DNA from: Crocinitomicaceae bacterium
GTDB taxonomy: Bacteria; Bacteroidota; Bacteroidia; Flavobacteriales_G; Salibacteraceae
Assembly: GCA_002707155.1 (NCBI GenBank)
Contig: PAME01000001.1
Span: 604,029-668,028, forward strand
Length of the DNA stretch: 64,000 bases
Reading direction: 5' to 3'
Part shown: piece after piece, positions 17,429 through 60,681 of the stretch
How the letters are laid out: each line of letters opens with the position of its first letter
How positions within the stretch are numbered: position 1 is the first letter of the stretch
Notes under the pieces: model-generated
Database searches by the model: none
What the model was told of the DNA's origin: nothing
The model's input: only the letters and a program-made list of their open reading frames with translations
Made by a program: the position numbers and the translations under genes

Positions 17429-17546
17429 GTAAGAATTCTGGTCTGAATTAGGTTATTAGCACTGGGTATATTAGTTTGTTTTGGATGAAATTTCTTAAAA
17501 GAATTAATGCTCCAGAATTAAATGGAATAATATTCATTGGCTAAAT

Positions 17547-17554
17547 TATATTTG
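17547..17554 (+). promoter_or_regulatory. Possible -7 element heading the polysaccharide cluster
   Basis: TATATTTG ends 18 bases before the ATG at 17573 of the tyrosine-kinase gene, the first gene of the long plus-strand run. The -33 box is not obvious. Confidence 0.45.
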
Positions 17555-17572
17555 CACATTATTGCAGATACT

Positions 17573-19975: not shown

Positions 19976-19991
19976 ACCCAATTTGTAATTT

Positions 19992-20840
19992 ATGAGCGTT
20001 ACTAAAGTTTGGGAATCTAGAATAACTTGTAAAACCGAGACGATTAATTTTGGTTTTGGCGATATTTATAGATATCGTGACTTATTATTTCTTTTTGTTA
20101 AGAGGGATTTTATTGCCTTTTACAAACAAACTATACTAGGTCCATTATGGTTTTTTATTCAACCTCTTTTGATGACATTAACCTATGTATTTATTTTTGG
20201 TCGGGTTGCAAACCTTTCATCGGACGGTAGTTCTTATCTTCTTTTTTACTTATGTGGTATAATAACCTGGACTTATTTCTCTGATGCGGTAAACCAAACA
20301 TCGACTACTTTTACTAAGAATGCACAGCTTTTTGGAAAGGTATATTTTCCGAGAATTATTACTCCTTTGGCCGTAGTCATAACCAATTTATTGAAACTCA
20401 GCATACAATTATGTTTGTTTGGGTTTATACTAGTAATCTACCTGGTAAAAGGAGAGCAGGTTGAACCGAATATCACCATTCTAGCTTATCCATTGTTAGT
20501 TTTAGTGATGGGAATGTTGGGGCTAGGAATTGGTCTTTTAGTTTCTTCTTTGACTACCAAATACCGCGACCTACAATTTTTAATTCAGTTTAGCGTACAA
20601 CTGTTAATGTACGCTTCAACGTTGATTTTTCCATTATCTAGTTTGGAAGGTAAGTTTAGATTAATTATTTTATGTAATCCGATGAGTTCAATTATTGAAA
20701 CATCGAGATTTATGTTTTTAGGAACTGGATCAATACCTTATTATGCTCTTTTATATACGGCTGTTGTTTCTATAGTTTTATTCTTTTTTGGGATATTTGT
20801 ATTTAATCGAACTGAGAAAAATTTCATGGATTCTGTTTAA
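19992..20840 (+). CDS. Polysaccharide ABC exporter, permease (Wzm-like)
   Basis: A 282-residue ABC-2 type permease with six predicted helices. The N-terminal cytosolic part has YRDLLFLFVKRDFIAFYKQT and PLWFFIQPL, characteristic of O-antigen and teichoic-acid exporters. It should move an undecaprenyl-linked glycan across the inner membrane with the ATPase encoded next. The gene follows the kinase by 16 bases. Confidence 0.9.
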   Translation: MSVTKVWESRITCKTETINFGFGDIYRYRDLLFLFVKRDFIAFYKQTILGPLWFFIQPLLMTLTYVFIFGRVANLSSDGSSYLLFYLCGIITWTYFSDAVNQTSTTFTKNAQLFGKVYFPRIITPLAVVITNLLKLSIQLCLFGFILVIYLVKGEQVEPNITILAYPLLVLVMGMLGLGIGLLVSSLTTKYRDLQFLIQFSVQLLMYASTLIFPLSSLEGKFRLIILCNPMSSIIETSRFMFLGTGSIPYYALLYTAVVSIVLFFFGIFVFNRTEKNFMDSV

Positions 20841-20859
20841 AATTAAATCTGTCTTTTTT

Positions 20860-22137
20860 TTGAATAAAAGTGAGTCAATATTAAAAGTAGCTGGCCTTGG
20901 TAAGCAATACAGACTTGGGCAAATAGGATTTGGAACGATTTCTCATGATTTGAATCGATGGTGGGCAAAACTTAGAGGAAAAGAAGATCCATTTTTAAAA
21001 GTTGGCGTAGAAAATGACCGGACGTTAGAAAACAATAATGAGTGCGTGTGGGCGATACGTGATATTAGCTTTGAAGTGAATCGAGGTGAGGTATTAGGTA
21101 TCATTGGTAAAAATGGCGCAGGTAAATCAACCTTATTAAAGGTTCTATCAAAAGTTACGGGACCTACTAAAGGCGAAATTGTTTACAACGGAAGAATTGC
21201 AGCTCTTCTGGAAGTAGGGACTGGGTTTCATCCTGAATTGACTGGAAAAGAAAATGTTTTTTTGAACGGTGCAATTTTAGGTATGACTCGCAGGGAGGTT
21301 CAAGAAAAATTTGATGAAATTATTGAATTCGCAGGTGTTAAACGATACATTGATACGCCGGTAAAACGCTATAGTTCAGGAATGTTAGTACGTCTAGGAT
21401 TTGCAGTTGCGGCGCATTTAGAACCAGAAATATTAATTGTAGATGAAGTATTAGCCGTAGGTGATTTCGAGTTTCAAAAGAAATGTTTGGGAAAAATGGA
21501 CGAAGTCAGTAAATCTGGCCGGACTGTTTTGTTTGTTAGTCATAATATGGCGGCGGTGAAAAATTTATGCGACCGAGCAATTGTCATTGACAAAGGGAGT
21601 GTTGTTTTTTCTGGAAATACTGATTTAGCTATTGATAAATACCTTGATGTTGCTCATAAGAGCCAAATTGAAGCTACCAATGATTTGGTTTTTTCGGTAG
21701 GAGAAAATCAAATTAATAAAATTAGAATCTTTTCTAATCAACAAGAAAAACAGATATTGGAAATTGGTGATAATTTGAAAGTCCAATTTGATTATTTGCT
21801 AAACAATACTTTGGAATTAAAGAATTTTAATGTTGCATTTAGAATATATGATGAAGAGGAAAATTGCCTTTGTAATGAAGCAATATCAGATAGAAATATG
21901 TTCGTGCCCTTACATAAGTCTACAGGTAAAATCGAATTTATACTGAATGATATTCGTTTATACCCTGGAAAATATTTCATTAAAATCTTCATTGCTAGTC
22001 CAGATTGGTTGCATGAGATAATTTCCACGGATTTATTTATGGCATTTGAAATTTTAGAATCTTCTAAAAAGGTAAATAGATTGCTTTCAAAAAACCATGG
22101 GCAATTTTATCTCTACCCAGAATGGAATTATGTTTAA
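20860..22137 (+). CDS. Polysaccharide ABC exporter, ATPase with C-terminal glycan-binding domain (Wzt-like)
   Basis: The ATPase domain has Walker A (IIGKNGAGKSTLLKVL), the signature YSSGMLVRLGF and Walker B (EILIVDEVLAVGD). About 150 extra residues after the ATPase (about 275-425) match the position of the carbohydrate-binding domain of Wzt proteins that recognise a capped O-antigen. I take TTG at 20860 as start, giving a usual N-terminus (LKVAGLGKQYRLG). The frame is open to an ATG at 20788, which would overlap the permease gene by 53 bases and add 24 untypical residues. Confidence 0.88.
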   Translation: MNKSESILKVAGLGKQYRLGQIGFGTISHDLNRWWAKLRGKEDPFLKVGVENDRTLENNNECVWAIRDISFEVNRGEVLGIIGKNGAGKSTLLKVLSKVTGPTKGEIVYNGRIAALLEVGTGFHPELTGKENVFLNGAILGMTRREVQEKFDEIIEFAGVKRYIDTPVKRYSSGMLVRLGFAVAAHLEPEILIVDEVLAVGDFEFQKKCLGKMDEVSKSGRTVLFVSHNMAAVKNLCDRAIVIDKGSVVFSGNTDLAIDKYLDVAHKSQIEATNDLVFSVGENQINKIRIFSNQQEKQILEIGDNLKVQFDYLLNNTLELKNFNVAFRIYDEEENCLCNEAISDRNMFVPLHKSTGKIEFILNDIRLYPGKYFIKIFIASPDWLHEIISTDLFMAFEILESSKKVNRLLSKNHGQFYLYPEWNYV

Positions 22138-22146
22138 AGAATTATT

Positions 22147-24108
22147 ATGAAAAATACACTGGCATTTATTACCCTAATCCTCTTATTGTTAATTAAACAG
22201 GATGTTTTTGGTCAACAGGCTGAGTGGGTTGCAAAAACAGTAACAACGGGGAATAATTATACAAGAGCCTTAACCATTGAAGGAGATTATGTTTATTCAG
22301 GGGGTAGGCATCGTTCTCCAAGCTACTATGTGAGTGGGAACGATTCAATTTTTATTCCACAATGGTATGGCAGTCGCGATATTTATTTTGCTAAATACAA
22401 TAAGAGTACCGGTAAGCAGATTTTTGTGAAGCATTATGGTACTTCCAAGTCGGAACAGGTTTGGAACATTACTTCTGATGGCCAAGGGGGAATTTATGTT
22501 CAGGGTGAATATTTTGATTCTTTGAACATTGATAATAAAATTATTTATGGTCTAGGAAAGCACGATTCATTTCTCGCAAAATTCGATACATCTGGAAATT
22601 GTCAATGGTTAAAGGGGTTTAGTTCACCCAACGGGGCATATATTAACGATATTAGAATTGAAGCTAAAAAGGTTTATGTAGCTGGTGGTTATACAGATAA
22701 GATGTTAGTTTTTAATAATAGTGACACCGTTAACGGCGGAGGTGGATTTATCCACAGGTATGACTTAATGGGTAATTTTGAATGGGGAATAACCGATACT
22801 TCAAAGTCAGCTAAGGGGTCCATCTCTTTCCAGGGTATTTGCGTTCAGGATTCTACTATTTTTTTCACTGGCGGAGTGAACTATCTGACTAAACTGGGGA
22901 ATTATTCAATACAAGCAACTAACAATCAATGGGGTGATTTTGTTCTTGGATGTATCGAAAATGACACAGTCAAATGGGTAAAAAACTCGGGAACGAGTTA
23001 CTCTGAAAACGCAATAAGAATAGAAAAGGTTAAGAATAGCTTGTACATTGCTGGAACATTCACGGGAAAGTCAGAATTCTTGGGCGAAAATATAAATGCC
23101 GGTGACACATTAGGTTCTGCAGCACAATTATATAATAAGCAAAACATATTTGTTCTAAAAACGGATTTAGAGGGTAACCTTGTGTTTTTGGAATCAATAA
23201 AATCAAGTATTTCTAGGTTTGGTGGTTTGAAAGTTGATTATAACGAAGTGCCATGGATTAGTGGAATGTTTCAAGATACGGTTTCGATTAAGGATTCTAC
23301 GTTTTATGCAAAAGGCGGCTCTGATATTTTTATAACTAAAATAAATAGTAATGGTATTTCGCCTCAGATTAGGCATTTTGGTGGCGATTCTCTTAATGTT
23401 GTTGAGGCTGGATTGGGCGATCGCGCTCATGATTTGGATATTGATGAATCAAGTAATGCGATATACGTAACTGGAGCTTTTTCGGGAGATTATAATTTTT
23501 CTGGTCTTTCAGGTAAAGGACATTTTAATAATAATCATTATGGAGTGCTTGTTAAATTTAGACAAGAAGTTGATTTGAAGAATTTTTCTTACGATAAGGA
23601 AATATGTGTGGATTCCTCATATTCCATTCGTAGTCCCTATTATAGTGAGCTAGATACAGTGTCTTGGAAAGTAATTAGCCCTTCAGGGATACAGAATTAT
23701 TCAGGAACTGTATTAAATTTTGCACCTGTTGATTCTGGTAAATATAAGGTTTCACTATCCGTTATGAATCAAAATTCAAATGACACAATCCAATTAGAAT
23801 TGAAGGCATTAATTTGTAAAAATGATAGTGGTGCTAATGATACTACTCATGTAGAAAATTTATTTAAAAAGAAGGAGTCGTTTTATTTATTTCCTAACCC
23901 TACTTCTGATTTATTGAATATGGTATTTTTTAATTCAGAGGTTCCTTTTGAGATATCTGTAACTTCTATCTTAGGAAATGTCCTTTATCAAGGGGTTTAT
24001 GCAAATAATCAATCAATTAATATTTCAAATTTACCTGAAGGTTTGTATTTTTTGCGAGCTCATTATGAAAATGGTGAAATAAAGGCCAAACAATTCATTA
24101 AGCATTAA
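22147..24108 (+). CDS. T9SS type A cargo protein with beta-propeller-like repeats
   Basis: A 653-residue secreted protein. Residues 1-22 form a signal peptide. Repeated segments of the form GNCQWLKGF, GGIYVQGEYF and AIYVTGAFSGDY across residues 60-480 look like delta-60 / SBBP-type beta-propeller blades. A PKD-like domain follows (near 500-555), and the last 75 residues are a type A sorting domain (FYLFPNPTSDLLNMVF, LPEGLYFLRAHYENG). It sits between exporter and glycosyltransferase genes with gaps of only 9 and 2 bases, so it is part of the cluster's transcription unit. Confidence 0.83.
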   Translation: MKNTLAFITLILLLLIKQDVFGQQAEWVAKTVTTGNNYTRALTIEGDYVYSGGRHRSPSYYVSGNDSIFIPQWYGSRDIYFAKYNKSTGKQIFVKHYGTSKSEQVWNITSDGQGGIYVQGEYFDSLNIDNKIIYGLGKHDSFLAKFDTSGNCQWLKGFSSPNGAYINDIRIEAKKVYVAGGYTDKMLVFNNSDTVNGGGGFIHRYDLMGNFEWGITDTSKSAKGSISFQGICVQDSTIFFTGGVNYLTKLGNYSIQATNNQWGDFVLGCIENDTVKWVKNSGTSYSENAIRIEKVKNSLYIAGTFTGKSEFLGENINAGDTLGSAAQLYNKQNIFVLKTDLEGNLVFLESIKSSISRFGGLKVDYNEVPWISGMFQDTVSIKDSTFYAKGGSDIFITKINSNGISPQIRHFGGDSLNVVEAGLGDRAHDLDIDESSNAIYVTGAFSGDYNFSGLSGKGHFNNNHYGVLVKFRQEVDLKNFSYDKEICVDSSYSIRSPYYSELDTVSWKVISPSGIQNYSGTVLNFAPVDSGKYKVSLSVMNQNSNDTIQLELKALICKNDSGANDTTHVENLFKKKESFYLFPNPTSDLLNMVFFNSEVPFEISVTSILGNVLYQGVYANNQSINISNLPEGLYFLRAHYENGEIKAKQFIKH

Positions 24109-31018: not shown

Positions 31019-32015
31019 TATGCTAATCCGCTTGTATGCACACCGTAAATAGATTATTTTTTCAAGTTGTTGTTTTACAGTAAAATAACAAACATGAAAA
31101 TAACAGAATTCAAAGATCGGTTTCCAGATGAACACAGTTGTCGTATAGATTTTAAGCTCAAGCGAGAAAAAGAAGGGGTAATTTGCAAGAGATGTTTCCA
31201 CAAAGAACATACTTGGCTAAGCAAACGGTATCAGTGGCATTGTAAGGGATGTGGTTTTAGAACAACTCTTCGAAGTGGAACCCTAATGCATGATAGTAAA
31301 CTACCGTTGCGAACATGGTACTTGTGTATGGCATTTATGGGAATGACAAAAAAAGCCATGAGTGCCCATGAAATGAGACGACAATTGGACATGAAACGTT
31401 ATGAACCTGTTTGGGCTATGATGCACAAAATACGAAAGGCAATGGGACAAAGAGACAAGCGGTATGAGCTGTTCAATAGTGTAGAGTTAGATGAGGGGTA
31501 TTTCCCACAAGCTACGCCCATCGCTATAAAACTTAAACGAGGTAAAGGCAGTCAACGAAAGAAAAATGTGTTGGTAATGGCAGAAAGCACACCATTAGAA
31601 AACGTAAATACAGGTAAAAAGAGTTCTCATTGTAGGTTTTTCAAAATGAAAGTGCTTCAAACTGGCACAGCCGATTCAATAAACCAAGAATTACGGGAAA
31701 GTATCAATGAAAAGGCCATTGTATTTTCTGATAAAGCCACAAATTATATTGATATTGCCAAGTATGTAGAAGGTCATGTGAAAATAAAGTCAGACAAGCA
31801 ATCAACAAATGAGTCGCTGAGATGGGTTCACATGGCTATAAGCAACGCCAAAAGAACTTTACTAGGTGTGTACCATAAAATTAGAGGAGTAAATCTGCAA
31901 TGCTATTTAGACGAATTTTGCTATAAACTAAACAGAAGATACTTTGGAGATAGGCTTTTCGATAGAATCACAATTGCGCTGGCTTCGAGCTTATGTATAC
32001 ATGCGGACTAGCATA
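31019..32015 (+). mobile_element. Intact IS1595-family insertion sequence, 997 bp
   Basis: Bounded by imperfect 24-bp terminal inverted repeats (left 31019-31042, TATGCTAATCCGCTTGTATG; right 31992-32015) that differ at about four or five positions, and flanked by an 8-bp duplication. It contains one transposase gene. It lies between the membrane-protein and wbqC genes and breaks no recognisable gene. Confidence 0.88.
31094..32011 (+). CDS. IS1595-family transposase (ISXO2-like DDE)
   Basis: A 305-residue transposase. The N-terminal zinc-ribbon has CKRCFHKEHTW and WHCKGCGFRTTLRSGT; the ISXO2-like catalytic domain follows with VELDEGYF (first Asp), IVFSDKATNYIDI (second Asp) and a C-terminal region with NAKRTLLGVYHKI and YLDEFCYKLNRR, which is the usual end of the family. 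The frame is complete, so the element may still be active. ATG at 31094 is chosen over the TTG at 31067. The stop codon lies inside the right inverted repeat. Confidence 0.93.
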   Translation: MKITEFKDRFPDEHSCRIDFKLKREKEGVICKRCFHKEHTWLSKRYQWHCKGCGFRTTLRSGTLMHDSKLPLRTWYLCMAFMGMTKKAMSAHEMRRQLDMKRYEPVWAMMHKIRKAMGQRDKRYELFNSVELDEGYFPQATPIAIKLKRGKGSQRKKNVLVMAESTPLENVNTGKKSSHCRFFKMKVLQTGTADSINQELRESINEKAIVFSDKATNYIDIAKYVEGHVKIKSDKQSTNESLRWVHMAISNAKRTLLGVYHKIRGVNLQCYLDEFCYKLNRRYFGDRLFDRITIALASSLCIHAD

Positions 32016-45085: not shown

Positions 45086-46429
45086 TTGATGACCAAGAAT
45101 AATATCAGTCAAAACAAACGGTTGCGTTTTTTTATTAAGCTGCTGGTATTCTTTGTATTGTTTATTGTACTGCATGAAGGTATTCTTAAGTTATCCGATG
45201 TGTCATCTATTAAAGCTTTAGTTCAGCCAATTTTTACTTACTACCCCGTTTCAGTTCGTCCAATTTTCCCTAAACCTAATCATGGCCGAGGAGAGTCTCT
45301 TAACCTCTCTAGTTCAATTCCTAAAGTGCATTTAACCACCTCTAACTATGGCATGTATTCCTTTTTCAATGGAATTTCTGCTTTAGGAATAAATTTTCTG
45401 ATGCCAAATGAATTTTCTAGGGCATGGTGGAATTGGAATGCCAATTATCATCAGCGTGGAAAGAAATGGGAAAGGCCTGCTAACCTCAAAGTTCAAGATT
45501 CAAAGGGTCGGTTTTTATTGGATGAAAATTTGGGGATTCGTATAAACGGAAATACATCGCGAGCATTTCCACAAAAATCTTTTCGTTTGTGTTTTCGAAA
45601 TAAGTACGGAATAGAACAAATGAGCAGTCCGTTTAATAATGATGAGAAAAGTGAATATCGTACCTTGGTACTGCGTAATCTAGGAGCGAATTGGGGTAAT
45701 TTATATTCTATTGATGCGATAATTCAGGAATCTATTCCCCGTAAGGATATTATTATACGTGCCGTGCCTGTTCAATTATTATTAAATGATCAAGATTGGG
45801 GTGTTTATTATTTAAGAAATAAGATTGAACTTTCTGTCGATGAGCAAAGGCAAGGAACTAAGCTTATTAAGCCTTCTACTTCAGAGTATAAAAAACTAAT
45901 TGATAACCTTTACGTGCTGGTCAGTGAAATGGACGATTCCTTGTTTTATTCTATGGCGAATAGACAGCTTGATCTGGAGTCTTTTAGCTACATGATTTTT
46001 ATTCATACCTTATTTGGGAATAAGGATTGGCCAAGAGGCAATATGGCTGTTAAGTTATCGGCTGAAAGGAAGGCTAAGTTTTATATTAAAGATTTAGATT
46101 TGGCTTTCACTCTTGAGTTATCCAAAGGTGGTTTCAAGGATTTATATGCAACAAATTCAAATGTCTTTTTTGAACTCTTTTTGAAATTAATGAGAAATAG
46201 GCAGTTTAGGAATCAGTATATGTCAATGGTTGAATCCTATTTTGTTGAAGATTGTTTTGAAAACCAATTAGATCAATATCGAAACCGTCTTTCTCCAAAA
46301 ACGGAAATTCAGACAAATCGATGGGGTAGGTATTCTATTAAAGAAATAGATACTTATTTATTTTCGGTTAGGGATAGTTTCGAATTTAGAAAAAGCAAAT
46401 ACATTGATTACTTAGAACAATATAATTAG
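45086..46429 (+). CDS. CotH-like kinase-family protein, membrane-anchored
   Basis: A 447-residue protein with an N-terminal membrane helix (about 15-35), so the rest faces the periplasm. It has CotH-family signatures: IRINGNTSRAFPQKSFRL (like the GNSSR..PKKSYRL block), GNKDWPRGN (Asp314, Asn319) and YIKDLDLAF (Asp336-x-Asp338), which match the catalytic and metal-binding positions of CotH protein kinases. The Glu of the GVYxLxE strand is not conserved (GVYYLRNKIE). It is the first gene of an unusual envelope block. Target unknown. Confidence 0.7.
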   Translation: MMTKNNISQNKRLRFFIKLLVFFVLFIVLHEGILKLSDVSSIKALVQPIFTYYPVSVRPIFPKPNHGRGESLNLSSSIPKVHLTTSNYGMYSFFNGISALGINFLMPNEFSRAWWNWNANYHQRGKKWERPANLKVQDSKGRFLLDENLGIRINGNTSRAFPQKSFRLCFRNKYGIEQMSSPFNNDEKSEYRTLVLRNLGANWGNLYSIDAIIQESIPRKDIIIRAVPVQLLLNDQDWGVYYLRNKIELSVDEQRQGTKLIKPSTSEYKKLIDNLYVLVSEMDDSLFYSMANRQLDLESFSYMIFIHTLFGNKDWPRGNMAVKLSAERKAKFYIKDLDLAFTLELSKGGFKDLYATNSNVFFELFLKLMRNRQFRNQYMSMVESYFVEDCFENQLDQYRNRLSPKTEIQTNRWGRYSIKEIDTYLFSVRDSFEFRKSKYIDYLEQYN

Positions 46430-46438
46430 TCACTCAAC

Positions 46439-47740
46439 ATGGATTTAAGACGTGCGTTTATATTTGTTTTAGTGGTTCTTTTTTGGATTCTGATTGGTGC
46501 ATTTGGAGGCCCGGTGATTTTTTTGGTGGCTCCTGTTACATGGTATTTATGGTTGCGTAAAGAGAATTATGAAGAGTTGTTTATAGGGTTTATTGTTACT
46601 CTTATTCTCTCAGATAGTTTGGAACCCGCACTTATTTTTGCTGGTAATTTGAAGACTATTTACATTCTTTTTTTGGGGTTGCTGGTCGTTTCTAACCGGA
46701 GTATTATTGGTGTGAAATTTCAAATATTTGCTTCGTTCTTGCCCTATTTGTTAGTAGCTTTACTTTGCTTGATTTGGAGTCCTTCAATGCTACCCGGTAT
46801 CCAGAAAACGGTCAGTTATGGTTTGCTTCTATTCATTGGTCCAACGCTAGCTAACTATTTATATGGAACTAGAAAAACTTTCTTAAAGTCATTTAATTAC
46901 TTAATAGGTTCAGTCCTTCTATTATCGCTAATTCTTTATTTCATTTTACCTGAAGTAGGTTCTTCTCATGGATTTCGTATGCGTGGAATTTTCGGTAACC
47001 CAAATGGGCTAGGTCTCTTTATTATTGTTTCTTTTTTGTTTTACCAATTTACCATGTGGCAAAGGCCTTCATTACTTTCGAGGTATGAAAGGTATGGACT
47101 TTTGACATTACTTGGATTGGCAAGCCTATATTCTGGTTCTCGGAATGCGTTGTTATCGATATTGTTGTTTTATGTTTTTGACTTCGCATTCAAAAATTTC
47201 AAGTATTTGGGGATGATTGTTTCAATTTTTATCGTCATTGCCTTAAACTTTGTGACTGCTAATGCAGTTGAAATTATTCATGCTTTATCATTAGAGGAGT
47301 TTTTTAGGGTGGAAACCCTTGCTGAAGGGTCGGGCCGGCTTATTGCTTGGCGTTTTGCATGGGAAAACATACAAGAGAGCTTTTACTTAGGAAGAGGTAT
47401 TGGATTTGATGAATATTTAATGCGTTCCAACGCATTTTACCTCTCTAAATTGGGACACGAAGGGGGTGTGCACAATACCTACCTCATTATTTGGTTAAAT
47501 ACGGGTATAATTGGTTTGTTGCTTTTTCTAGGATCCTTGATTTATCTTTTTATCAAAGCTTCTGCCAATAGTTTATTTGCTTTTCCTTTTTTGTTCACAG
47601 TTTTGTTTTCAATAAGCTTTGAACCTTGGCTGGCAGCTAGTTTAAATCCATATACTATTGTGTTTTTAATCACTCTTACCGGCATTCTTATTCCAAAGTC
47701 TGTGTTTGAGAATTCAAATGAAGAAATGGAATTATCTTGA
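46439..47740 (+). CDS. O-antigen polymerase / ligase-like membrane protein (Wzy/WaaL family)
   Basis: A 433-residue protein with about 11-12 helices. It has the typical large periplasmic loop, containing GSGRLIAWRFAWENI and HNTYLIIWLNTGIIG, the PF04932 core that acts in polymerisation or ligation of undecaprenyl-linked glycans. Only one such gene is seen in the window. The next gene overlaps its stop (TTGA). Confidence 0.85.
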   Translation: MDLRRAFIFVLVVLFWILIGAFGGPVIFLVAPVTWYLWLRKENYEELFIGFIVTLILSDSLEPALIFAGNLKTIYILFLGLLVVSNRSIIGVKFQIFASFLPYLLVALLCLIWSPSMLPGIQKTVSYGLLLFIGPTLANYLYGTRKTFLKSFNYLIGSVLLLSLILYFILPEVGSSHGFRMRGIFGNPNGLGLFIIVSFLFYQFTMWQRPSLLSRYERYGLLTLLGLASLYSGSRNALLSILLFYVFDFAFKNFKYLGMIVSIFIVIALNFVTANAVEIIHALSLEEFFRVETLAEGSGRLIAWRFAWENIQESFYLGRGIGFDEYLMRSNAFYLSKLGHEGGVHNTYLIIWLNTGIIGLLLFLGSLIYLFIKASANSLFAFPFLFTVLFSISFEPWLAASLNPYTIVFLITLTGILIPKSVFENSNEEMELS

Positions 47741-48660
47741 CCCAAGTGAAAAGAGCTTTTAAAATGTGCCTTTTAATTGCAGTTTTAGTTATAGCATCTG
47801 AAGTGGGACTTCGGATTTATGGACTAGGCCAATGGATTGTTTATGAGGAAAATAGTCGTTATGAATACTTTCAAATAGCTAATTTAAACTTCGATCGTTT
47901 CGGACACCATTATTCGACTAATTCTTTGGGAATGCGCGCTAGCCCAGAAATAGACAAAAGGGGAATACGTATTTTAAAATTTGGTGATTCGGTTTTAAAT
48001 GGAGGCGCAAAAGTATCTGATGAAAATAATGTGACTAGTTTAGTATCAGACTCGTTAAGTAAATTAGTGATAGAAAATACGATTCTTAATATTTCGTCTG
48101 GCAGTTGGGGTACTGAGAATGCTTTTGAATATTTACAGGATCACAAAGAATTAAATCCCGATTTTATTGTATTGGTATTTAGCTCGCACGATTATTCAGA
48201 TAATATGCATTTTAAAAATGTAGTAGGAAACCATCCTAATTGGCCCAATGAACAACCACATTGCGCAATTGATGATTTATGGTCAAAATGGCTAAAATAT
48301 AAACTCGGAGAGGTGTTTAATTATCGTTTTGAAGAGCTACACTATCTAGATAATGTAATTGACACTGGCATGAGTCCGGGTTGGAATAAATTCCATTTTT
48401 ATGCTCAAGATAATGATATTCCAATGTTGGTCTATTTACATCCTGAGCAGGAAGAAATTGAAAAAGGAAGATGGAAATTGAATGGCCAAAAACTAATTAG
48501 ATGGTTTGATGAAAATGGTATTTCATATGTGGATGGATTGGAACAAGGCTATTTAACCAATTCTTATGAAGATAACATTCATTTAAATGCAAAAGGCCAT
48601 AAGTCAATTGCACAAAATATCTTTCCTTCGCTGCTTAATTCTATTCGATCAAAGAAGTGA
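47737..48660 (+). CDS. Membrane-anchored SGNH/GDSL-like protein
   Basis: A 307-residue protein with an N-terminal helix (about 8-24) and an extracytoplasmic SGNH-like fold. Block I is ILKFGDSVLNGGAKV (GDS, with Ser in the nucleophile position), followed by SHDYSDN and the C-terminal DNIHLNAKGHKSIA (Asp-x2-His dyad, block V). The family often O-acetylates or deacetylates polysaccharides. It starts with TTG and sits between the polymerase and the second CotH-like gene. Confidence 0.75.
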   Translation: MTQVKRAFKMCLLIAVLVIASEVGLRIYGLGQWIVYEENSRYEYFQIANLNFDRFGHHYSTNSLGMRASPEIDKRGIRILKFGDSVLNGGAKVSDENNVTSLVSDSLSKLVIENTILNISSGSWGTENAFEYLQDHKELNPDFIVLVFSSHDYSDNMHFKNVVGNHPNWPNEQPHCAIDDLWSKWLKYKLGEVFNYRFEELHYLDNVIDTGMSPGWNKFHFYAQDNDIPMLVYLHPEQEEIEKGRWKLNGQKLIRWFDENGISYVDGLEQGYLTNSYEDNIHLNAKGHKSIAQNIFPSLLNSIRSKK

Positions 48661-51119
48661 TTACAATAAGTTTCAAGAAAATATTTATTGCATTAATTAT
48701 TATTGCTCTTGTTGCAATGGCATATTTATCAAATGCTTTCGTTGTTCATCTAGGCTACTCCTCCATATTCTCATTTTTGAATTTATCTGTCATGCACGTT
48801 ATTCAGGGGCAACCCGCTAAATTGGAGCTTTCTATTGAGATAAAACCCAAACATTTTAAGAAGATTGAGCAGGTTAGAAATGATGCATTAAAAAGAGGTG
48901 TTATTATTCAACCTGAAGACCCTTATGTGCCTTGTGAATTAACTTATAAAGGAGGAATTATAAAGGGAGAAATTAGGCTTAAGGGAAAAATGACGGATCA
49001 CGTTTCAGGTAAGAAATGGTCCTTTCGCGTAAAAACAAAAAAGAACGATGCCTTTATGGGTATGCAGCGGTTTACCCTACAACACCCGGGAACGAGAGGG
49101 TACGTTTATGAGTGGTTGCACCATGAGATGTGCAAGCGCGAGGGAATTATTGCTTTGCGTTATGAGTTTATTAACCTTACAGTGAACGGAGATAATTTAG
49201 GAGTATATGCGGTTGAAGAAAACTTTGGTCAGCCTTTAGTGCAAAACAATAATAGGCCTAAGGGACCTGTGTTTCGTTTTAATCCAACGCTCTATTGGCA
49301 GGCTCGATTGAATGCTATGCAACGGGTGTACATAGCGCAAGAATTTACCAATTTCCAGCATGCCCATGTGGAGGCATTTTCTAAAAAGGAAACCTTTACC
49401 GACTCCAGTTTAAAAGAATCATTTATCGATGCAAACATTTTAATGAACAAGGTGCGCTGGGGCGAAGTACAAGTTGCCGATGCTTTTGATGTTGAAAAGT
49501 TGGCCATGCGATACGCCTTGCTGGATTTGTGTGGGGGTTACCACAGTGTCGATTGGAGCGATGTAAAGTTTTATTACAACCCTGTACTAAAAAAAATAGA
49601 ACCGGTGGCTTACGAAAGTTTTGGTCCGCGTTTTATCGATCACATTATTGGTAATTACCGATTTACAGACACTCAAGAAGCTTTTCCAAACGATTATCAC
49701 GACATCATATTTTCGGACAGCAGCTTTTTTGCTGCATACATACAAGCCCTGCGCACGGTATCTAAACCCGGGTATTTTGAAGCGGTACTCGCAACAGTGC
49801 AGGAAGAATTGGATAAACGTGTAGCGATTCAATACAGCGAATTTCCTTATAAAGATTTTAATTTGGAGGTATTTCGACACAACCTAAAAACCATACGAAA
49901 AACCTTAGAGGCTCCTAAAAACTTTCATGCCTTCCTAAGCGGTAGAAGCAGAGACAGTATAACGCTGCAATTGCAGGTCATAGAGAGCTTGCCCACAGAG
50001 GTACTCGGAATTCGGGTAAAGGGTACAGTATTTTTGCTGCCAGTTCCAGTTGTATTGCCCGCCTTAGGAAGGAAGCATCGTCCAGTGTTCAAAACCTTGA
50101 AATGGGCATTGGATTCCACTGTAGAAGTGGATACGGAGCGCGGCAAAGACTTGGAGGTACTTTATCGCTTACTTGGAGATACAGCAAAACATTCCTGTGA
50201 GGTATTTCCCTACGAGATACACGCTTATAACCAACAAAAAAGTAACGCGATACTGCCTGTGGTTTTTTCAAAGGCGCAGGATTTTATTACGATTGATTCA
50301 ACCACTAAATCCTATTTCATTAATCGCTCTGATGCCTTATTGGACCAAGCTTTTGCAGTACCACTAGGTTGGACCTTGAAAGCAACAGCTCCGCTAACAT
50401 TGACAATTGGTGCACAAGGAAGCCTTCAAGTGGAAGGCAGTTTGGATTTTAAAGGAATTGAGGACGAGCCAATAGTTGTAGCGGTAAATAGTGCGGCACC
50501 TAATTGGTTGTCAATAATGCCCGGAGGTGGTCCCTCAGAATGGAAAAGGGTGATTTGTAACCTAAACTCGAACAGTAGCATCCTGCTTTATGGGGTTACT
50601 TTTGCAGCCTCTGAGTTGGAAATGAGGGGGAGTGCCCAAACGTTTATCGAAGCGTTCAATACCGAAATCAGCTTAAGTCATTCGTCTTTTGAGTCCGCTA
50701 CAAAATCGGCGTTGGAGTTATCGTTTTGTAAAGCAAGCGGAATAGATTTGCGTTTTGTAGGGTGGAATAAAGGCATCGATTCAAAAGCGGGCACACTCGT
50801 ACTTCAACAGTGCCTATTTCGAGAGCTTACCAAAGGAATAGAAACCAAACGCAAAGACCAAGTACAATTGGAGGCGGTAACTATGGATGGGGTGCAACTA
50901 GGAGTGGAGGTTCAAGATGGCGCGCTCTTGACATGGTCTAAGGGTAAGGTGTCCAATGCTGAATTGTTCATAAAGGTGCATCGAAAAGGTAATCGCTATG
51001 CACCAGCTCAGGCAACTTGTGCGGCAGTGGAATTGGTGGAGGTAAAAGAAACCTACGTGTTGGAAAAGGACAACAGTTTGGTACTTGATGGTGTGGAGCA
51101 AACCCCAAATAAACCATGA
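48657..51119 (+). CDS. CotH-like protein with a C-terminal beta-helix domain
   Basis: An 820-residue protein. The N-terminal membrane helix (about 5-25) precedes a CotH-family domain: EIRLKGKMTDHVSGKKWSFR, GVYAVEENFG (Glu187), GGYHSVDWSDVKFYYNP (His296, Asp302) and KIEPVAYES. After about 440 residues a right-handed beta-helix-like part begins (GSLQVEGSLDF, then ISLSHSSFESATKSALEL repeats). GTG start overlapping the previous TGA. The first ~250 bases are AT-rich and the remainder is richer in GC, so the gene spans a composition step. Confidence 0.72.
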   Translation: MITISFKKIFIALIIIALVAMAYLSNAFVVHLGYSSIFSFLNLSVMHVIQGQPAKLELSIEIKPKHFKKIEQVRNDALKRGVIIQPEDPYVPCELTYKGGIIKGEIRLKGKMTDHVSGKKWSFRVKTKKNDAFMGMQRFTLQHPGTRGYVYEWLHHEMCKREGIIALRYEFINLTVNGDNLGVYAVEENFGQPLVQNNNRPKGPVFRFNPTLYWQARLNAMQRVYIAQEFTNFQHAHVEAFSKKETFTDSSLKESFIDANILMNKVRWGEVQVADAFDVEKLAMRYALLDLCGGYHSVDWSDVKFYYNPVLKKIEPVAYESFGPRFIDHIIGNYRFTDTQEAFPNDYHDIIFSDSSFFAAYIQALRTVSKPGYFEAVLATVQEELDKRVAIQYSEFPYKDFNLEVFRHNLKTIRKTLEAPKNFHAFLSGRSRDSITLQLQVIESLPTEVLGIRVKGTVFLLPVPVVLPALGRKHRPVFKTLKWALDSTVEVDTERGKDLEVLYRLLGDTAKHSCEVFPYEIHAYNQQKSNAILPVVFSKAQDFITIDSTTKSYFINRSDALLDQAFAVPLGWTLKATAPLTLTIGAQGSLQVEGSLDFKGIEDEPIVVAVNSAAPNWLSIMPGGGPSEWKRVICNLNSNSSILLYGVTFAASELEMRGSAQTFIEAFNTEISLSHSSFESATKSALELSFCKASGIDLRFVGWNKGIDSKAGTLVLQQCLFRELTKGIETKRKDQVQLEAVTMDGVQLGVEVQDGALLTWSKGKVSNAELFIKVHRKGNRYAPAQATCAAVELVEVKETYVLEKDNSLVLDGVEQTPNKP

Positions 51120-52138
51120 ACAAACTAAAGTATTTACTACTTTTTATTTTGTGTTCGCATCAATTGTGGGCTCAACCTTACTCCGTCAATAGTCTGCGTT
51201 GGGACTCTAGCCTTGCACAACGGCCTGAATATACTTTTATAATTAGTGGTCATTTTTACGGTGATGGTTTCAATAAAACGCATTATCCTGCCAATACGAT
51301 ATTGGGCAATATTGAATTACTCAATTCGGTGGATTTTACCCTGTGCTTGGGTGATCTGTACCGCGATGTCCGATACGATCACACTTTTTACAAGAAACAT
51401 TTTTACAGCCAACTGAAAAAGCCGCTGCTCAATGCGGTAGGAAACCACGACATATCTGGAAGCTTTTATCAAGATTTCATAGCGCCAACATTTTATCGAT
51501 TCAAAACACTTGGGGTGCACCATATTGTGTTGGACACCGAACTGGACGACAGTAGCATCGAAGGAGAACAGCTAAACAGTCTAAAAGCAGGGATAAACGC
51601 ATTTAACGAAAGTACCGCATCATATTTGATGATTTATTCACATCGTCCCATTTGGGCCGAAGAAGATAGTGTGCTTCAACGCGTGTTCAGTGACAATACA
51701 CAAAGTGATTTTGGTAGTAATTTCCAAACCGACGTTGAGCCTTTACTGCAACAGATAAACTCAGGCAAACAAGTGTACTGGTTTTCAGGTTCTATGGGAG
51801 CGCAGCCCTACGCTTTCTTTTATCAAAAGCGCGAGCATATACATTATGCCATAACGGCAATTCGAGGTGCTGATAAAGATGCCGTATTGTTGGCACATTA
51901 CAAGGATGGTAGTTTGAATTTTCAGACGCACTCGCTCACTGGTCAGAAGTTACTAGCTTTTGAGGACTATACGGTGGATAAGTTCACAACGTACGAAGCA
52001 CCGTTGGAAATCAATTACCGCTTGATACCGCTTTGGGTAAAAAATACTATTTTTCACAGGTACTTCTGGTACGGAGTTTTAGTTGGTCTATTGGTCATTT
52101 TTGTTGTAATGAATCTAAAAAGTAAGTTGAAGAGGTGA
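51116..52138 (+). CDS. Secreted metallophosphoesterase, C-terminally anchored
   Basis: A 340-residue protein. It has a signal peptide (1-20), the calcineurin-like phosphoesterase motifs SGHFYGD (His46, Asp50), CLGDLYRD (Asp80), GNHDISG (Asn110, His111, Asp112) and YSHRPIW, and a C-terminal membrane helix near 318-337. It therefore acts outside the cytoplasm. It overlaps the CotH-like gene by 4 bases (ATGA). A phosphatase beside kinase-like proteins suggests linked phosphate turnover. Confidence 0.83.
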   Translation: MNKLKYLLLFILCSHQLWAQPYSVNSLRWDSSLAQRPEYTFIISGHFYGDGFNKTHYPANTILGNIELLNSVDFTLCLGDLYRDVRYDHTFYKKHFYSQLKKPLLNAVGNHDISGSFYQDFIAPTFYRFKTLGVHHIVLDTELDDSSIEGEQLNSLKAGINAFNESTASYLMIYSHRPIWAEEDSVLQRVFSDNTQSDFGSNFQTDVEPLLQQINSGKQVYWFSGSMGAQPYAFFYQKREHIHYAITAIRGADKDAVLLAHYKDGSLNFQTHSLTGQKLLAFEDYTVDKFTTYEAPLEINYRLIPLWVKNTIFHRYFWYGVLVGLLVIFVVMNLKSKLKR

Positions 52139-53190
52139 TCAATAAACCCAAAGTACTATTCCTATATACCGAAATTGCGGAATATTTTCTTGCTGCTTGC
52201 TCGGCTTTAGCTGAAAAAGCGGAAGTATTTATTGTACGATGGCCAATAAACTCCGCAGCACCTTTTGAATTTGAAGTACCAAAAGGAGTGCATATTCTAG
52301 AGCGCCAACAATACGATACGCCAGCACTCATCCAGAAGGCAAAGGAAATACAGCCCGATGTGGTTTTTTGTTCGGGTTGGATGGATAAAGGTTATTTGAA
52401 AGTGGTAAAAGCCTTATCGGAAGAAACGGTTACCGTAATTAATTTAGATAATCATTGGAAAGGGAATTTGAAACAGCGCATTGCCAGTTTGGGGGCGCAA
52501 TATAGTTTTCTGAAGTATTTTAAATACGCTTGGGTTCCGGGAGCAAAACAAAAGGAGTACGCGCAGCGATTAGGCTTTCCAGAAGACAACATTTATATGG
52601 GTTTTTACACCGCAAACCTTGAACGTTTTAATGGCGTGTTCGATCAATCTCGTCCGTCAAAGCAAACTATTTACCCTAAGCGTTTTTTGTATTTAGGACG
52701 CTACGTAGCGTACAAAGGCATATTTGATTTGTGGAAGGGGTTTGAGCAGTACAGGAACCAAGGCGGAACCTGGGAACTCATTTGTGCTGGAACTGGTGAT
52801 CAATGGGATAACCGCGCAATAGCAGAAGGAATTGAACACGTGGGTTTTGTGCAGCCACAGGACATGCCCAAATTGATTGAAAAATCCGGCGCTTATGTTT
52901 TACCCAGCCACGAGGAACCCTGGGGCGTAAGCGTACATGAAATGGCTGCTGCTGGATTGCCTTTGTTGCTGAGTCAAGAAGTGGGGTCCATAAGTACTTT
53001 TTTGGAGGAAGGAAAAAATGGCTTTAGTTTTCCTCAAAAAGCTCCGGAACTAATTGCAGCAGCAATGTTTAGTATTGAAAAAATGAGCGATGGTGAATTA
53101 CTGAAAATGGGCGAAATTAGTCATGAGAAAGGTAATTACATAAATGCAAATAATTGGGTAAATACCGTGTTGAAAATAATTGAGGACTAA
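52135..53190 (+). CDS. GT4 glycosyltransferase
   Basis: A 351-residue GT-B enzyme: FLYTEIAEYFLAACSALAE at the start, FLYLGRYVAYKGIFDL and SHEEPWGVSVHEMAAAGLPL (EX7E) at the donor side. GTG start overlapping the previous TGA by 4 bases. Followed after 3 bases by asnB. It is more GC-rich than the glycosyltransferases before 45 kb. Confidence 0.86.
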   Translation: MINKPKVLFLYTEIAEYFLAACSALAEKAEVFIVRWPINSAAPFEFEVPKGVHILERQQYDTPALIQKAKEIQPDVVFCSGWMDKGYLKVVKALSEETVTVINLDNHWKGNLKQRIASLGAQYSFLKYFKYAWVPGAKQKEYAQRLGFPEDNIYMGFYTANLERFNGVFDQSRPSKQTIYPKRFLYLGRYVAYKGIFDLWKGFEQYRNQGGTWELICAGTGDQWDNRAIAEGIEHVGFVQPQDMPKLIEKSGAYVLPSHEEPWGVSVHEMAAAGLPLLLSQEVGSISTFLEEGKNGFSFPQKAPELIAAAMFSIEKMSDGELLKMGEISHEKGNYINANNWVNTVLKIIED

Positions 53191-53193
53191 TTT

Positions 53194-55062
53194 ATGTGCG
53201 GAATTGCAGGTGTTTATGGATTAGAAGGAATAGCGGATGCGCAAGGGCTTGCCAAAGGCTTGACCAATTCCATTCAGCACCGTGGACCCGATGCATCCAA
53301 TACGTATACGGATGAGTCGGTAGTTTTGGTGCATACGCGATTGAGTATCCTCGATTTGGATGAACGATCGAATCAACCCTTTAAAGACCCTGCTGGCCGA
53401 TACGTGCTTGTTTTTAATGGTGAAATCTACAATTTCAAAGCAGTTAAAAAGGAATTATCCTCCTACACCTTTACCACGGAATCAGATACCGAAGTGCTCC
53501 TGGCAGCGTGGCTGAAATGGGGCATTGATTGTCTCTCTCGTTTTAATGGAATGTTTGCTTTTACCATTTGGGATAAAGCAAAAAAAGAGTTGTTCATTGT
53601 CCGCGATAGAATGGGGATTAAGCCCGTTTATTTTTACCAAGGCGATAAAAACTTTGTGTTCGGAAGCGAATTAAGAGCGCTATTGTATACCGGCCTAGTG
53701 CCAAGAAAATTAGCCTCGGAACATTTAGCCGAGTACCTAAAATACCAAACGGTGCACGCACCGAGAACACTCCTTAAAGATGTTTTTTTAATTCCAGCGG
53801 GATCTTATTTGAAAATAGCAGATGCTACCGTTACCGAACATCAATATTGGAAAGCAGAAGAACAGGTGGCACAACGGAAAGTAGATGCTGCTTCTGTAAA
53901 AGCGGAAACCAAGCAGTTGCTCATAGAGGCGGTGGATCGTCGCTTGGTAAGCGATGTGCGTATTGGCGCTTTTTTGAGCGGAGGTATTGATAGCTCGCTG
54001 TTAGTAGGCATAATTCGAAAAGAACTCAATAAACCCATCGACACCTTTGCGATAACCTTTAAGGAAAAAGAATTTTCTGAAGCCAAGTATAGCAGAATGG
54101 TCGCTGAACGTTTTCAAACCCAACACCACGAAATTGAATTATCCTCGGAAGACTTTAAAGAAAAAATTCCTTTGGCATTGGATGCCATGGATCACCCTAG
54201 CGGAGATGGCCCCAACTCCTATACGGTAGCTGAGGCGGTAAAAAAGCAAGGCATTACGGTAGCGTTATCGGGATTGGGCGGCGATGAGCTTTTTGCAGGT
54301 TATCCATTTTTCACGCGACATTTAGATTTGCAACAGAAGAAATACCTATTGAGTTTTCCTCCTTTTATTCGAGGAATTATCGGTAAACTATTAATGCAAG
54401 TAAAACCGGGAACCACTAGTCAAAAAATAGCAGAAACACTATCCTTGCCTTATTTTGATTTGGCCTATACCTATCCTGTAAATCGCAGGGTGTTGGCTGA
54501 AAACTGGATTTCAAAACTCTTGGGAAAAGAGACGAAAAGGGATGTATTGAGTGAAGAGATAAACGATCTTTTTGCTTTTGGAACTTTTGGAAGTCGTCTG
54601 CCAGAATTGAGTAAAGTATCACTGGTTGAATTGGGAACCTACATGCAAAACGTATTGTTGCGCGATACCGATCAAATGAGTATGGCGCATGCCTTGGAAG
54701 TTCGCGTGCCTTTTCTAGATCACAAATTGGTCAGCCATTGTTTGAGTATTTCCGATAAATTGAAATACCCAAAGTACCCAAAATCACTGCTGATTGAATC
54801 TTTTGAAGGCCTTTTACCGGACGAGGTGGTGCATCGCGAAAAAATGGGTTTTGTATTGCCTTGGGAAAATTGGCTGAGAAATGACTTAAAGTCCTTACTC
54901 GATAGTAGTTTTACTTTCTTAAGTAGCACGCGTCATTTTGATGCAATGGCTATAATGGAGCTAAAAACGAGCTTTGAAAACAAACAAGACGGCATTAATT
55001 GGAGCAGAGTATGGCCTTTGGTTACCTTAGGCGCTTGGATGCAAAAGCATGAAATTGACTAA
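53194..55062 (+). CDS. asnB: Asparagine synthetase, glutamine-hydrolysing, type B
   Basis: A 622-residue enzyme with the N-terminal nucleophile Cys2 (MCGIAGVYG), a class II glutamine amidotransferase domain to about 210 and an ATP-binding synthetase domain with the PP-loop AFLSGGIDSSLL. It normally makes asparagine. In polysaccharide clusters, homologues are frequent and may amidate sugar acids such as uronates. Here it is followed by glycosyltransferase genes with overlap, which favours a cluster-specific role. Confidence 0.9.
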   Translation: MCGIAGVYGLEGIADAQGLAKGLTNSIQHRGPDASNTYTDESVVLVHTRLSILDLDERSNQPFKDPAGRYVLVFNGEIYNFKAVKKELSSYTFTTESDTEVLLAAWLKWGIDCLSRFNGMFAFTIWDKAKKELFIVRDRMGIKPVYFYQGDKNFVFGSELRALLYTGLVPRKLASEHLAEYLKYQTVHAPRTLLKDVFLIPAGSYLKIADATVTEHQYWKAEEQVAQRKVDAASVKAETKQLLIEAVDRRLVSDVRIGAFLSGGIDSSLLVGIIRKELNKPIDTFAITFKEKEFSEAKYSRMVAERFQTQHHEIELSSEDFKEKIPLALDAMDHPSGDGPNSYTVAEAVKKQGITVALSGLGGDELFAGYPFFTRHLDLQQKKYLLSFPPFIRGIIGKLLMQVKPGTTSQKIAETLSLPYFDLAYTYPVNRRVLAENWISKLLGKETKRDVLSEEINDLFAFGTFGSRLPELSKVSLVELGTYMQNVLLRDTDQMSMAHALEVRVPFLDHKLVSHCLSISDKLKYPKYPKSLLIESFEGLLPDEVVHREKMGFVLPWENWLRNDLKSLLDSSFTFLSSTRHFDAMAIMELKTSFENKQDGINWSRVWPLVTLGAWMQKHEID

Positions 55063-58587: not shown

Positions 58588-60681
58588 ATGAAGGTGAATC
58601 AATCCATTCTATTAATCATTGCGAGCCTAATGTTGGTTTGTAGCTCTGTTTCAGCACAGGTTACTGCGCCGTCATTGCGTTGCATTTCGGTAGATGGCTC
58701 ACAAATTAAGTTAGACTGGGTAATTTCAAACGACCCCTCAGGGGAGTTTACAAAGTATGAAGTTTTTCAGTCCATTGGAATGAGCCCTTTTGTAAACGTT
58801 GCAAACCTCAATAACCGCATCCAAAACTCTTACACGCACATCAATGCAAATTTTGGAGCCCCATCTTCAGACCACCGTTATTATATAATTGCGGAATACG
58901 ACGATGGAACGGTAAAAAACACCTTGCCTTCGGATACTTTACGACCTATTGTTCCCAATTTGACGGTCAATCAAAATGTTTCGGGCCAGTTGGTGTGGAA
59001 TCCGATTCACACGCCCGATTTGCCAAGTTCTGCTGCAAGATACGATGTCGATAGAAGGTTTTCAGGTGCTGTGCCGAATTGGACGAACGGTCTTGCTACC
59101 CCAAATTTAGGTGATGAATTTTTTAATGATAATGTTGCGCGTTGTGATGATGAAGTTTTTTATCGGGTAAGACTGCAAGATAACAGCGGTTGTGAAAGTG
59201 TATCTGCAATTGCAAATCAGGTGTTGGTGAAAAGTGCAGGCCCCGCTCCAATGAGCTTTAGTGCAATTTCAGTAAATAAGGATTTTGGGCATACAGAGTT
59301 ATTTTGGGACCAACACCCAGAGCCAGAAACGATTGGTTACATCATTTTTTATGTTGATGCAAATGGTTCAGCAGTAATAATTGATACAGTAAGCAGCTCA
59401 ACTTTTTCATACAAAGATTTAGATGTAAGACGCCCTTCTTTTTTAGCGGCGCAGTGTTACAGAATTGCACCAATTGACTCTTGTAGCAAAACGCAAGGTG
59501 CTATCAGTACACATTGTACCATGCATTTAACCAGAACCTTTGATCCCTGCGAAGGCGAAGTCTCGTTGAATTGGACGCCATATGATGGTTGGGATAACGG
59601 AGTGGAGCAATACGATGTGTATATGAGTACTAATAACGGCCCTTTTGTGCTGAAAGGAGAGGTTGATGGTACAGTGAATTCCTATGGTATATTAAATATT
59701 TCTGCCATTAATACCTACGCTTTTTACATTACTGCACGAAGTAGAACGGGAGGAGTAAGTTCTAACTCCAACTTATTGGGGACAAAATTTGACATAGCGG
59801 ATAAAACCCAACACATAAGATTGAGGTCCGCAACTATCAATGAAAACACTTCGGTTGGAATTAATTGTTTGGTAGATCGAAAAGCTGAGTTTGATCATAT
59901 TGCATTGTATCGATCGCACAGTAGAGAAGGGACTTATCAAAAAATAAGAAAGTTTGTTCCAAGTAATCGAGTAGATTCATTTTTAACCATTGAGGATACT
60001 ATTCCCTTGGATAATCAATTGAAAGCATTTTACTATGCAATTGTAATTGATGAATGCGGCAAGCCTATTGTTAAGAGCAATACCATTAGTACAACTTACC
60101 TAAAGGCAGTAGGAAGTAAATATGATTTTAAAACAGAATTGAATTGGAATTTAGCCATAATTACGGACACTATTGAACAAGTTCAGCCCGCTTATTATGC
60201 CTATTATGGAATGAATCGGCAGCTGCAGGCTAATTATTTTGGTTCCTCTCGAACCGGAACTCGGCTGGAGCATCCGTTTGTCAGTGATGCTATTTACAGC
60301 AACGAATTCTGTTATCAAATCGAGCTAATTCAACAAGCAAGTACATTATACCCAAAAGAAGATATCAGTTATTCGAACATGGAGTGCTTTTTATTTGAAC
60401 CTGAATTTCATATTCCCACTGCATTTTCACCGAATATTGACGGGGTAAATGAAATCTGGAAACCAGAAATTATATACGGTGAGGCTGGAACAGGATACTT
60501 ACTTCAGATATACGACCGTTGGGGAAAAATTGTATTTGAAACCGATGATCCAAATGAAGGATGGGATGGAACACACAACTCAGAGCCATGTCCTATAGGT
60601 TCGTATATCTATAAATTCAAGTTACTAAGCTACTCGGAATCGCAGATACAGCGAGAAGGAACTTTCACTTTAGTGCGATAG
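58588..60681 (+). CDS. T9SS type B cargo (gliding-motility-associated C-terminal domain protein)
   Basis: A 697-residue secreted protein. Residues 1-24 form a signal peptide. The body holds fibronectin-III-like beta-sandwich repeats (IKLDWVISNDPSG, FGHTELFWDQHPEPETIGYI, VSLNWTPYDGWDNGVEQYDV). The C-terminal ~90 residues are the type B sorting domain: IPTAFSPNIDGVNEIW, LLQIYDRWGKIVFET and PIGSYIYKFKL. It should be secreted by T9SS and anchored to the cell surface. Monocistronic. Confidence 0.88.
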   Translation: MKVNQSILLIIASLMLVCSSVSAQVTAPSLRCISVDGSQIKLDWVISNDPSGEFTKYEVFQSIGMSPFVNVANLNNRIQNSYTHINANFGAPSSDHRYYIIAEYDDGTVKNTLPSDTLRPIVPNLTVNQNVSGQLVWNPIHTPDLPSSAARYDVDRRFSGAVPNWTNGLATPNLGDEFFNDNVARCDDEVFYRVRLQDNSGCESVSAIANQVLVKSAGPAPMSFSAISVNKDFGHTELFWDQHPEPETIGYIIFYVDANGSAVIIDTVSSSTFSYKDLDVRRPSFLAAQCYRIAPIDSCSKTQGAISTHCTMHLTRTFDPCEGEVSLNWTPYDGWDNGVEQYDVYMSTNNGPFVLKGEVDGTVNSYGILNISAINTYAFYITARSRTGGVSSNSNLLGTKFDIADKTQHIRLRSATINENTSVGINCLVDRKAEFDHIALYRSHSREGTYQKIRKFVPSNRVDSFLTIEDTIPLDNQLKAFYYAIVIDECGKPIVKSNTISTTYLKAVGSKYDFKTELNWNLAIITDTIEQVQPAYYAYYGMNRQLQANYFGSSRTGTRLEHPFVSDAIYSNEFCYQIELIQQASTLYPKEDISYSNMECFLFEPEFHIPTAFSPNIDGVNEIWKPEIIYGEAGTGYLLQIYDRWGKIVFETDDPNEGWDGTHNSEPCPIGSYIYKFKLLSYSESQIQREGTFTLVR

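Follow-up and report, generated by a model that had tools for sequence, protein, structure and literature searches.

The closest described relatives of the locus presented here are the accessory sets of Gram-positive pel clusters. In the available excerpts of PMC7112168, the genes for CotH, a poly-phosphate polymerase, DUF4956 and DUF4832 are contiguous with the pel genes. According to the excerpts of PMC12345266, the deletion in S. intermedius of the CotH gene SIR_1594, or of SIR_1592, which is of the DUF4956 type as read from its description there, leads to less aggregation in artificial sputum and to an altered Pel level; these excerpts do not list SIR_1593, the mutant of the polyphosphate polymerase, with the mutants that aggregate less, and the authors state that the syntenic trio was not found outside the Pel locus in their analyses. 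These sets resemble the cassette studied here in that CotH, a VTC-type polymerase and DUF4956 stand next to exopolysaccharide genes and in that part of the set affects the polymer level (PMC7112168; PMC12345266). In contrast, the same excerpts mention no beta-helix CotH2, no metallophosphoesterase (MPE) and no Wzy, and Pel is synthase-dependent whereas the cluster analysed here is Wzc/Wzm/Wzt/Wzy-like.

Other known systems share folds with single members of the cassette. The CotH spore coat kinase (5jd9/5jda) has the same kinase fold, and its catalytic Asp, Asn and DxD are present in CotH1; CotH2 differs from it by an altered catalytic loop and DxD, by an added beta-helix and by its place in the envelope instead of the spore. 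Alginate is modified in the periplasm by the epimerase AlgG and is acetylated by AlgI/AlgJ/AlgX. The cassette recalls this machinery by the AlgG-like beta-helix fold of CotH2 and by the SGNH and MBOAT companions found in some loci, but where alginate has epimerase chemistry it offers a kinase fold and a phosphatase fold, and the likeness to AlgG is one of fold. Purple acid phosphatase and GpdQ share with MPE the fold (Z 19.0-19.6) and the GD, GNHD and His motifs, whereas in MPE the Asp of the first motif is replaced by His and the His of the last one by Ser or Asp.

The association of CotH, VTC and DUF4956 beside Pel genes is already described in the excerpts cited above; the part that appears to be new is the CotH2 and MPE set together with its Wzy version. 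The initial annotation of the locus knew of no described system with this content; this appears to hold for CotH2 with MPE, but not for CotH with a polyphosphate polymerase and DUF4956 beside Pel (PMC7112168; PMC12345266, excerpts). A search in one open-licence literature collection, where absence is not absence in print, returned no paper on CotH2 with MPE or on the Wzy version.

Organization of the locus

The DNA belongs to a Crocinitomicaceae bacterium (GCA_002707155.1, contig PAME01000001.1), and the window, i.e. the whole stretch analysed, covers 64,000 nucleotides (604,029-668,028 of the forward strand). The five-gene envelope block lies at 45086-52138, with every ORF called on the + strand. 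The gene for CotH1, a membrane-anchored CotH-family kinase-like protein of 447 aa (45086-46429), is separated by 9 bases (46430-46438) from that of a Wzy/WaaL-like polytopic protein, a polymerase or ligase (46439-47740). An SGNH/GDSL hydrolase-like anchored protein (47737-48660), CotH2 (820 aa, 48657-51119) and MPE (51116-52138) follow, and these three joins are 4-base overlaps. The initial annotation had these coordinates and overlaps right, with the first gap counted as 10 bases, and presented the five coupled genes as a block. However, the MPE gene also overlaps by 4 bases the next gene, which encodes a glycosyltransferase (52135-53190, +), so that the five genes form a stretch of a longer polysaccharide gene run and not a closed unit. 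An asparagine-synthase-like amidotransferase gene comes next (53194-55062, +); glycosyltransferase and amidotransferase genes of these types are found within 9 kb of MPE in 20/54 and 33/54 Bacteroidota loci, respectively.

The surrounding surface-polysaccharide run contains many glycosyltransferases, sugar enzymes and the amidotransferase, as well as a Wzc-like protein (17537-19975), Wzm (19992-20840) and Wzt (20788-22137). At 17537-22137, a Wzc-like co-polymerase is thus encoded beside the ABC exporter pair Wzm/Wzt, i.e. Wzy-type and ABC-type export parts are present in one cluster. An IS1595-type transposase gene is located within the cluster (31067-32011), and two genes near the glycan genes (22147-24108 and 58588-60681) encode proteins that bear sorting domains for type IX secretion.

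In agreement with the envelope location claimed by the initial annotation, each of the five proteins is either anchored in the membrane or has many helices within it, according to the hydrophobic segments and to two structure models. The hydrophobic segment covers residues 10-39 in CotH1, 6-31 in the SGNH protein and 1-33 in CotH2; in MPE it is C-terminal (residues 312-339), with helices at 2-18 and 315-339 in the model. The Wzy/WaaL-like protein has many such segments and matches Pfam Wzy_C (PF04932) with an E-value of 6e-16 (59 bits for a cut-off of 31.7), and the SGNH protein matches Lipase_GDSL with an E-value of 3.9e-6 (27.6 bits for a cut-off of 23.6). None of the five proteins matched the PADLOC anti-phage models, and the reading of the block as a defence system was dropped.

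Conservation of the gene set

Of the 295 class genomes, 90 contain relatives of CotH1 and 47 contain relatives of CotH2, the two being close together in many of them. The order that prevails in 20 neighbourhoods, chosen by strong CotH2 matches and not at random, is [DUF4956-VTC]-CotH1-Wzy-[SGNH]-CotH2-MPE-glycosyltransferase. A scan of the genome contigs with an MPE profile gave 70 loci, four of which (L158-L161, generic phosphoesterases) were left out; the 66 loci kept comprise 54 from Bacteroidota and 12 with non-Bacteroidota or uninformative titles. Since the contigs differ in the upstream sequence available, the 54 Bacteroidota loci were counted with denominators of 49 (at least 1 kb), 44 (at least 3.2 kb) and 41 (at least 6 kb). 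CotH2 adjoins MPE in 49/49 loci; a Wzy gene occurs in 43/44, and the CotH1 gene in 41/41. CotH1, the Wzy/WaaL-like protein, CotH2 and MPE are a conserved cassette in Bacteroidota, and the co-occurrence outside one strain, on which the initial annotation had made its proposal depend, is observed. The SGNH protein, which it counted among the five, is an optional member: it is encoded in 3/41 loci, and an SGNH_B+MBOAT version in another 3/41, so it was dropped as a core member.

These counts bear on the possibility that the genes have come together by chance in a polysaccharide island open to exchange, with no functional link. Such clusters are mosaic and a transposase gene is present at 31067-32011, but the numbers given above come from loci of many records and the order recurs in distant genomes, which makes this explanation hardly conceivable.

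The 12 other loci, whose record titles name Planctomycetes, Chloroflexi, Gammaproteobacteria, Gemmatimonadetes, one bacterium and one Nanohalarchaeota MAG, differ in composition. CotH2 (12/12), VTC (11/12) and DUF4956 (11/12) are found beside MPE, whereas neither Wzy nor CotH1 was detected in any of these 12 loci. VTC, DUF4956 and CotH-type genes are present here together outside pel, with MPE. Taken together, the neighbour counts inside and outside the Bacteroidota indicate that the core is CotH2-MPE with VTC and DUF4956, and that CotH1 and Wzy are a Bacteroidota addition. It could also be argued that MPE recycles the lipid carrier, by dephosphorylating the undecaprenyl diphosphate that the Wzy/WaaL-like protein frees, with the CotH proteins as unrelated passengers. 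Wzy does lie in the same block, and lipid metabolism does have enzymes with the MPE fold, such as LpxH and LpxG; yet MPE keeps CotH2 in 12/12 non-Bacteroidota loci where no Wzy was found, and we consider this role very improbable.

Several of these loci show particular features. In L147 (Anaerolineales), the four-gene set is located between dnaJ and prmA, and no glycan gene was found among the three neighbours scanned. In the gammaproteobacterial loci L155, L156 and L157, a gene of 183 aa stands between VTC and MPE; its copies in L155 and L157 gave no Pfam match. The record of L143 is titled Nanohalarchaeota archaeon, and this MAG may be mis-binned.

Folds and motifs of CotH1, CotH2 and MPE

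Both CotH-like proteins of the initial annotation are recovered by the profile search that it had recommended. CotH1 matches Pfam CotH with an E-value of 8.2e-18 (65.4 bits for a cut-off of 23.8). In the alignment, D314, N319 and the DxD formed by D336 and D338 are kept in 39/39 sequences, and we take them to be the catalytic residues, also from the alignment with 5jd9. The N-lobe lysine, a putative ATP-binding residue, is K164 in the window protein and is kept in 26/39 sequences, with His in the other 13/39. CotH1 is the likely phosphotransferase of the set.

The match of CotH2 to Pfam CotH is weaker (E-value of 6.9e-8, 32.8 bits for a cut-off of 23.8) and limited to residues 106-282, but it is found in 52/53 of its relatives. 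A direct phmmer search of CotH2 and MPE against the PDB gave no useful match. The AlphaFold model of CotH2 (pLDDT 89.4, from a 53-row alignment) contains a kinase fold, a beta-sandwich and a C-terminal beta-helix. Its residues 53-419 (48813-49913, +) superpose on B. cereus CotH 5jda with a Z of 26.4 and an rmsd of 3.3 over 315 residues (VIA-align), which agrees with the kinase fold expected by the initial annotation. Residues 528-820 (50238-51116, +) superpose on the periplasmic alginate epimerase AlgG 4ozz with a Z of 24.5 and an rmsd of 2.4 over 262 residues (VIA-align), and AlgE4, NosD, polygalacturonases and phage tailspikes come close behind; Pfam Beta_helix is found in 23/53 CotH2 relatives. 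Since AlgG and matches of the polygalacturonase and tailspike type are involved, the modelled beta-helix suggests carbohydrate handling, and names no ligand.

The catalytic part of CotH2 departs from the family. K120 is kept in 53/53 sequences, but E320-x-F322 stands where CotH1 has DxD, the second Asp being absent; an acidic residue occupies position 320 in 56/57 rows, and D299 is present in 47/57 rows and missing in all 10 non-Bacteroidota rows. The register of the catalytic loop was set by eye and from the secondary structure of the model, the comparison of the CotH1 and CotH2 profiles having aligned the N-lobe only; with this register, CotH2 lacks the canonical CotH catalytic motif and DxD. 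Of the two CotH-like kinases of the initial annotation, CotH2 could therefore be an altered enzyme or a pseudokinase.

MPE raises a similar question. Its match to Pfam Metallophos (E-value of 0.0012) is below the family cut-off in the window protein; of the 47 sequences in the family alignment, 33 reach E<=0.01. The AlphaFold model (pLDDT 92.3, from a 47-row alignment) is close to GpdQ (Z 19.6, rmsd 2.6, 214 residues aligned) and to pig PAP (Z 19.0, rmsd 3.2, 225 residues aligned), members of a calcineurin-like fold group that takes in phosphodiesterases and purple acid phosphatases. The canonical metal motifs of calcineurin-like metallophosphoesterases are D-x-H, GD, GNHD, a later His and G-H-x-H. 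In MPE, GD, GNHD and the later His are kept in all of the 57 sequences covering those places, but the first motif is H-x-[HY] in the Bacteroidota rows, and in place of the last one there is GS or GD with a hydrophobic residue after it. The secreted phosphatase of the initial annotation thus has the fold of a phosphoesterase with non-canonical metal motifs.

Because of these altered motifs, CotH2 and MPE could be altered enzymes or pseudoenzymes. In the second case, a pseudokinase and a pseudophosphatase would act as a structural scaffold, a platform for chain holding or assembly, the enzyme being CotH1 alone, or only Wzy and SGNH. The presence in the MPE match list of Plasmodium GAP50, presumably a non-catalytic member of the fold group, is in agreement with a scaffold. 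In contrast, the conservation of three metal motifs (GD, GNHD and the later His) throughout the MPE sequences, of Lys120 in all CotH2 sequences and, with one exception, of the acidic residue at 320 argues against it, and we regard the scaffold as unlikely.

A more serious alternative is a regulatory phosphorylation of protein, in which CotH1 and CotH2 would phosphorylate an envelope protein (the polymerase, a co-polymerase or a secreted protein) and so tune the polysaccharide output, MPE reversing the reaction. Kinases and phosphatases commonly come in pairs, CotH has been described as a protein kinase, for which such a role in Pel regulation is proposed in the excerpts of PMC7112168, and the mutants of CotH and DUF4956-type genes in the pel cluster alter the amount of Pel (PMC12345266, excerpts). 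However, the AlgG-like beta-helix of CotH2 points to a carbohydrate ligand, the fold group of MPE includes phosphodiesterases and purple acid phosphatases and is not mainly one of protein phosphatases, and the MPE-CotH2 pair is found without Wzy too. Protein phosphorylation appears to us possible but doubtful.

VTC and DUF4956

VTC and DUF4956 are partners missed by the initial annotation, since other loci carry both with the cassette genes. The accessory set of pel clusters includes both locally; in the window, neither is present. The genome of the window has one VTC and one DUF4956 gene, adjacent to each other on another contig (C24), near another CotH gene. On this contig (L001, L091, L092), VTC, DUF4956 and a third gene of 216 aa are oriented opposite to the secreted CotH gene.

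A local VTC is found upstream in 18/41 Bacteroidota loci, the other 23/41, like the window, being without it, and VTC was consequently dropped as an obligatory local partner in this phylum. A full-length DUF4956 accompanies VTC in 17 of these 18 loci, and the eighteenth (L110) is cut by the contig end. In 22 Bacteroidota loci there is a weak, short DUF4956-like match only, with no VTC within 9 kb; the short ORFs, called in 10 of the 22, measure 132-187 aa, whereas the full-length proteins have 227-248 aa. In loci such as L093, L096, L105, L121 and L137, DUF4956 and VTC are replaced by short DUF4956-like genes that lack the part for the soluble C-terminus. L098 has neither VTC nor DUF4956, as in the window.

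Among the matches listed for the 295 genomes of the class, VTC and CotH are both present in 139, VTC only in 5, CotH only in 31 and neither in 120, i.e. a Fisher odds ratio of 108, not corrected for descent. The Mantel-Haenszel odds ratio within families is 18.7 (p 1.5e-6; 15 informative families among 228 family-labelled genomes); this test leaves out the 67 of 295 genomes without a family label, all of which have neither VTC nor CotH. VTC and CotH co-occur strongly, within families too. VTC is found somewhere in 16/16 genomes with MPE at E<1e-100, among the matches listed, but since 139/170 CotH genomes have VTC, again among the matches listed, this says hardly more than the VTC-CotH coupling itself. 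VTC and CotH are at one place in at least 25 of 90 cases. In 20 further VTC stretches, taken from the 65 places unmatched by the typed CotH list, VTC occurs with DUF4956 in 18 and CotH is present in 2, and direct adjacency of VTC and CotH was dropped as a general rule. The charged residues of the VTC proteins of the module, which we take to be those expected of the VTC tunnel, are kept in 25-27 of 27 sequences.

A possible phospho-modification cassette

We favour, with a confidence somewhat short of even, a reading in which the block represents the Bacteroidota version of a cassette for extracytoplasmic phospho-modification, with a surface polysaccharide as its putative target. As in the initial annotation, we infer phosphorylation of a glycan or of a glycan carrier. 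CotH1 would be the phosphotransferase and CotH2 its partner, whose beta-helix may hold the chain and whose kinase-like half may either catalyse with an altered active site or activate CotH1. MPE would strip or recycle phosphate from the product or the donor, Wzy would polymerise or ligate the chain beside CotH1, CotH2 and MPE, and in some strains SGNH, or SGNH with MBOAT, would add or remove acyl groups. VTC and DUF4956, encoded on another contig in the genome of the window, may supply the donor. Several lines of evidence point to such a cassette: the conservation of the neighbourhood, the VTC-CotH coupling and the folds, together with the invariant Asp, Asn and DxD of CotH1, the charged residues of VTC and the phenotypes of the pel-cluster mutants (PMC12345266, excerpts). 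Against it stand the His found at Lys164 of CotH1 in 13/39 sequences, the altered motifs of CotH2 and MPE, the 23/41 loci without local VTC and the fact that CotH is established, in the excerpts of PMC7112168, as a protein kinase and not as a glycan kinase.

A more specific version is an extracytoplasmic kinase system fed by polyphosphate. VTC would make polyphosphate at the inner face and DUF4956 would let it cross the membrane or gate its passage; CotH proteins would draw on it to add phosphate to surface glycans in a place where ATP is scarce, and MPE would recover or prune phosphate. Polyphosphate as the donor is weakened by the 23/41 Bacteroidota loci and the window without a local VTC, and by the SIR_1593 mutant not being among the aggregation-reducing ones in the excerpts of PMC12345266, so that we hold this version to be distinctly unlikely. 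If it were true, CotH-type enzymes would gain a donor and bacterial VTC proteins would gain a job.

The phospho-modification cassette touches on two questions, the phosphate donor of secreted or periplasmic kinases and the job of bacterial VTC and DUF4956 proteins. The compact module brings a polyphosphate polymerase together with proteins of the CotH fold and one of a phosphatase fold, in Bacteroidota beside a polysaccharide polymerase or ligase, and both questions can be tested in one gene set.
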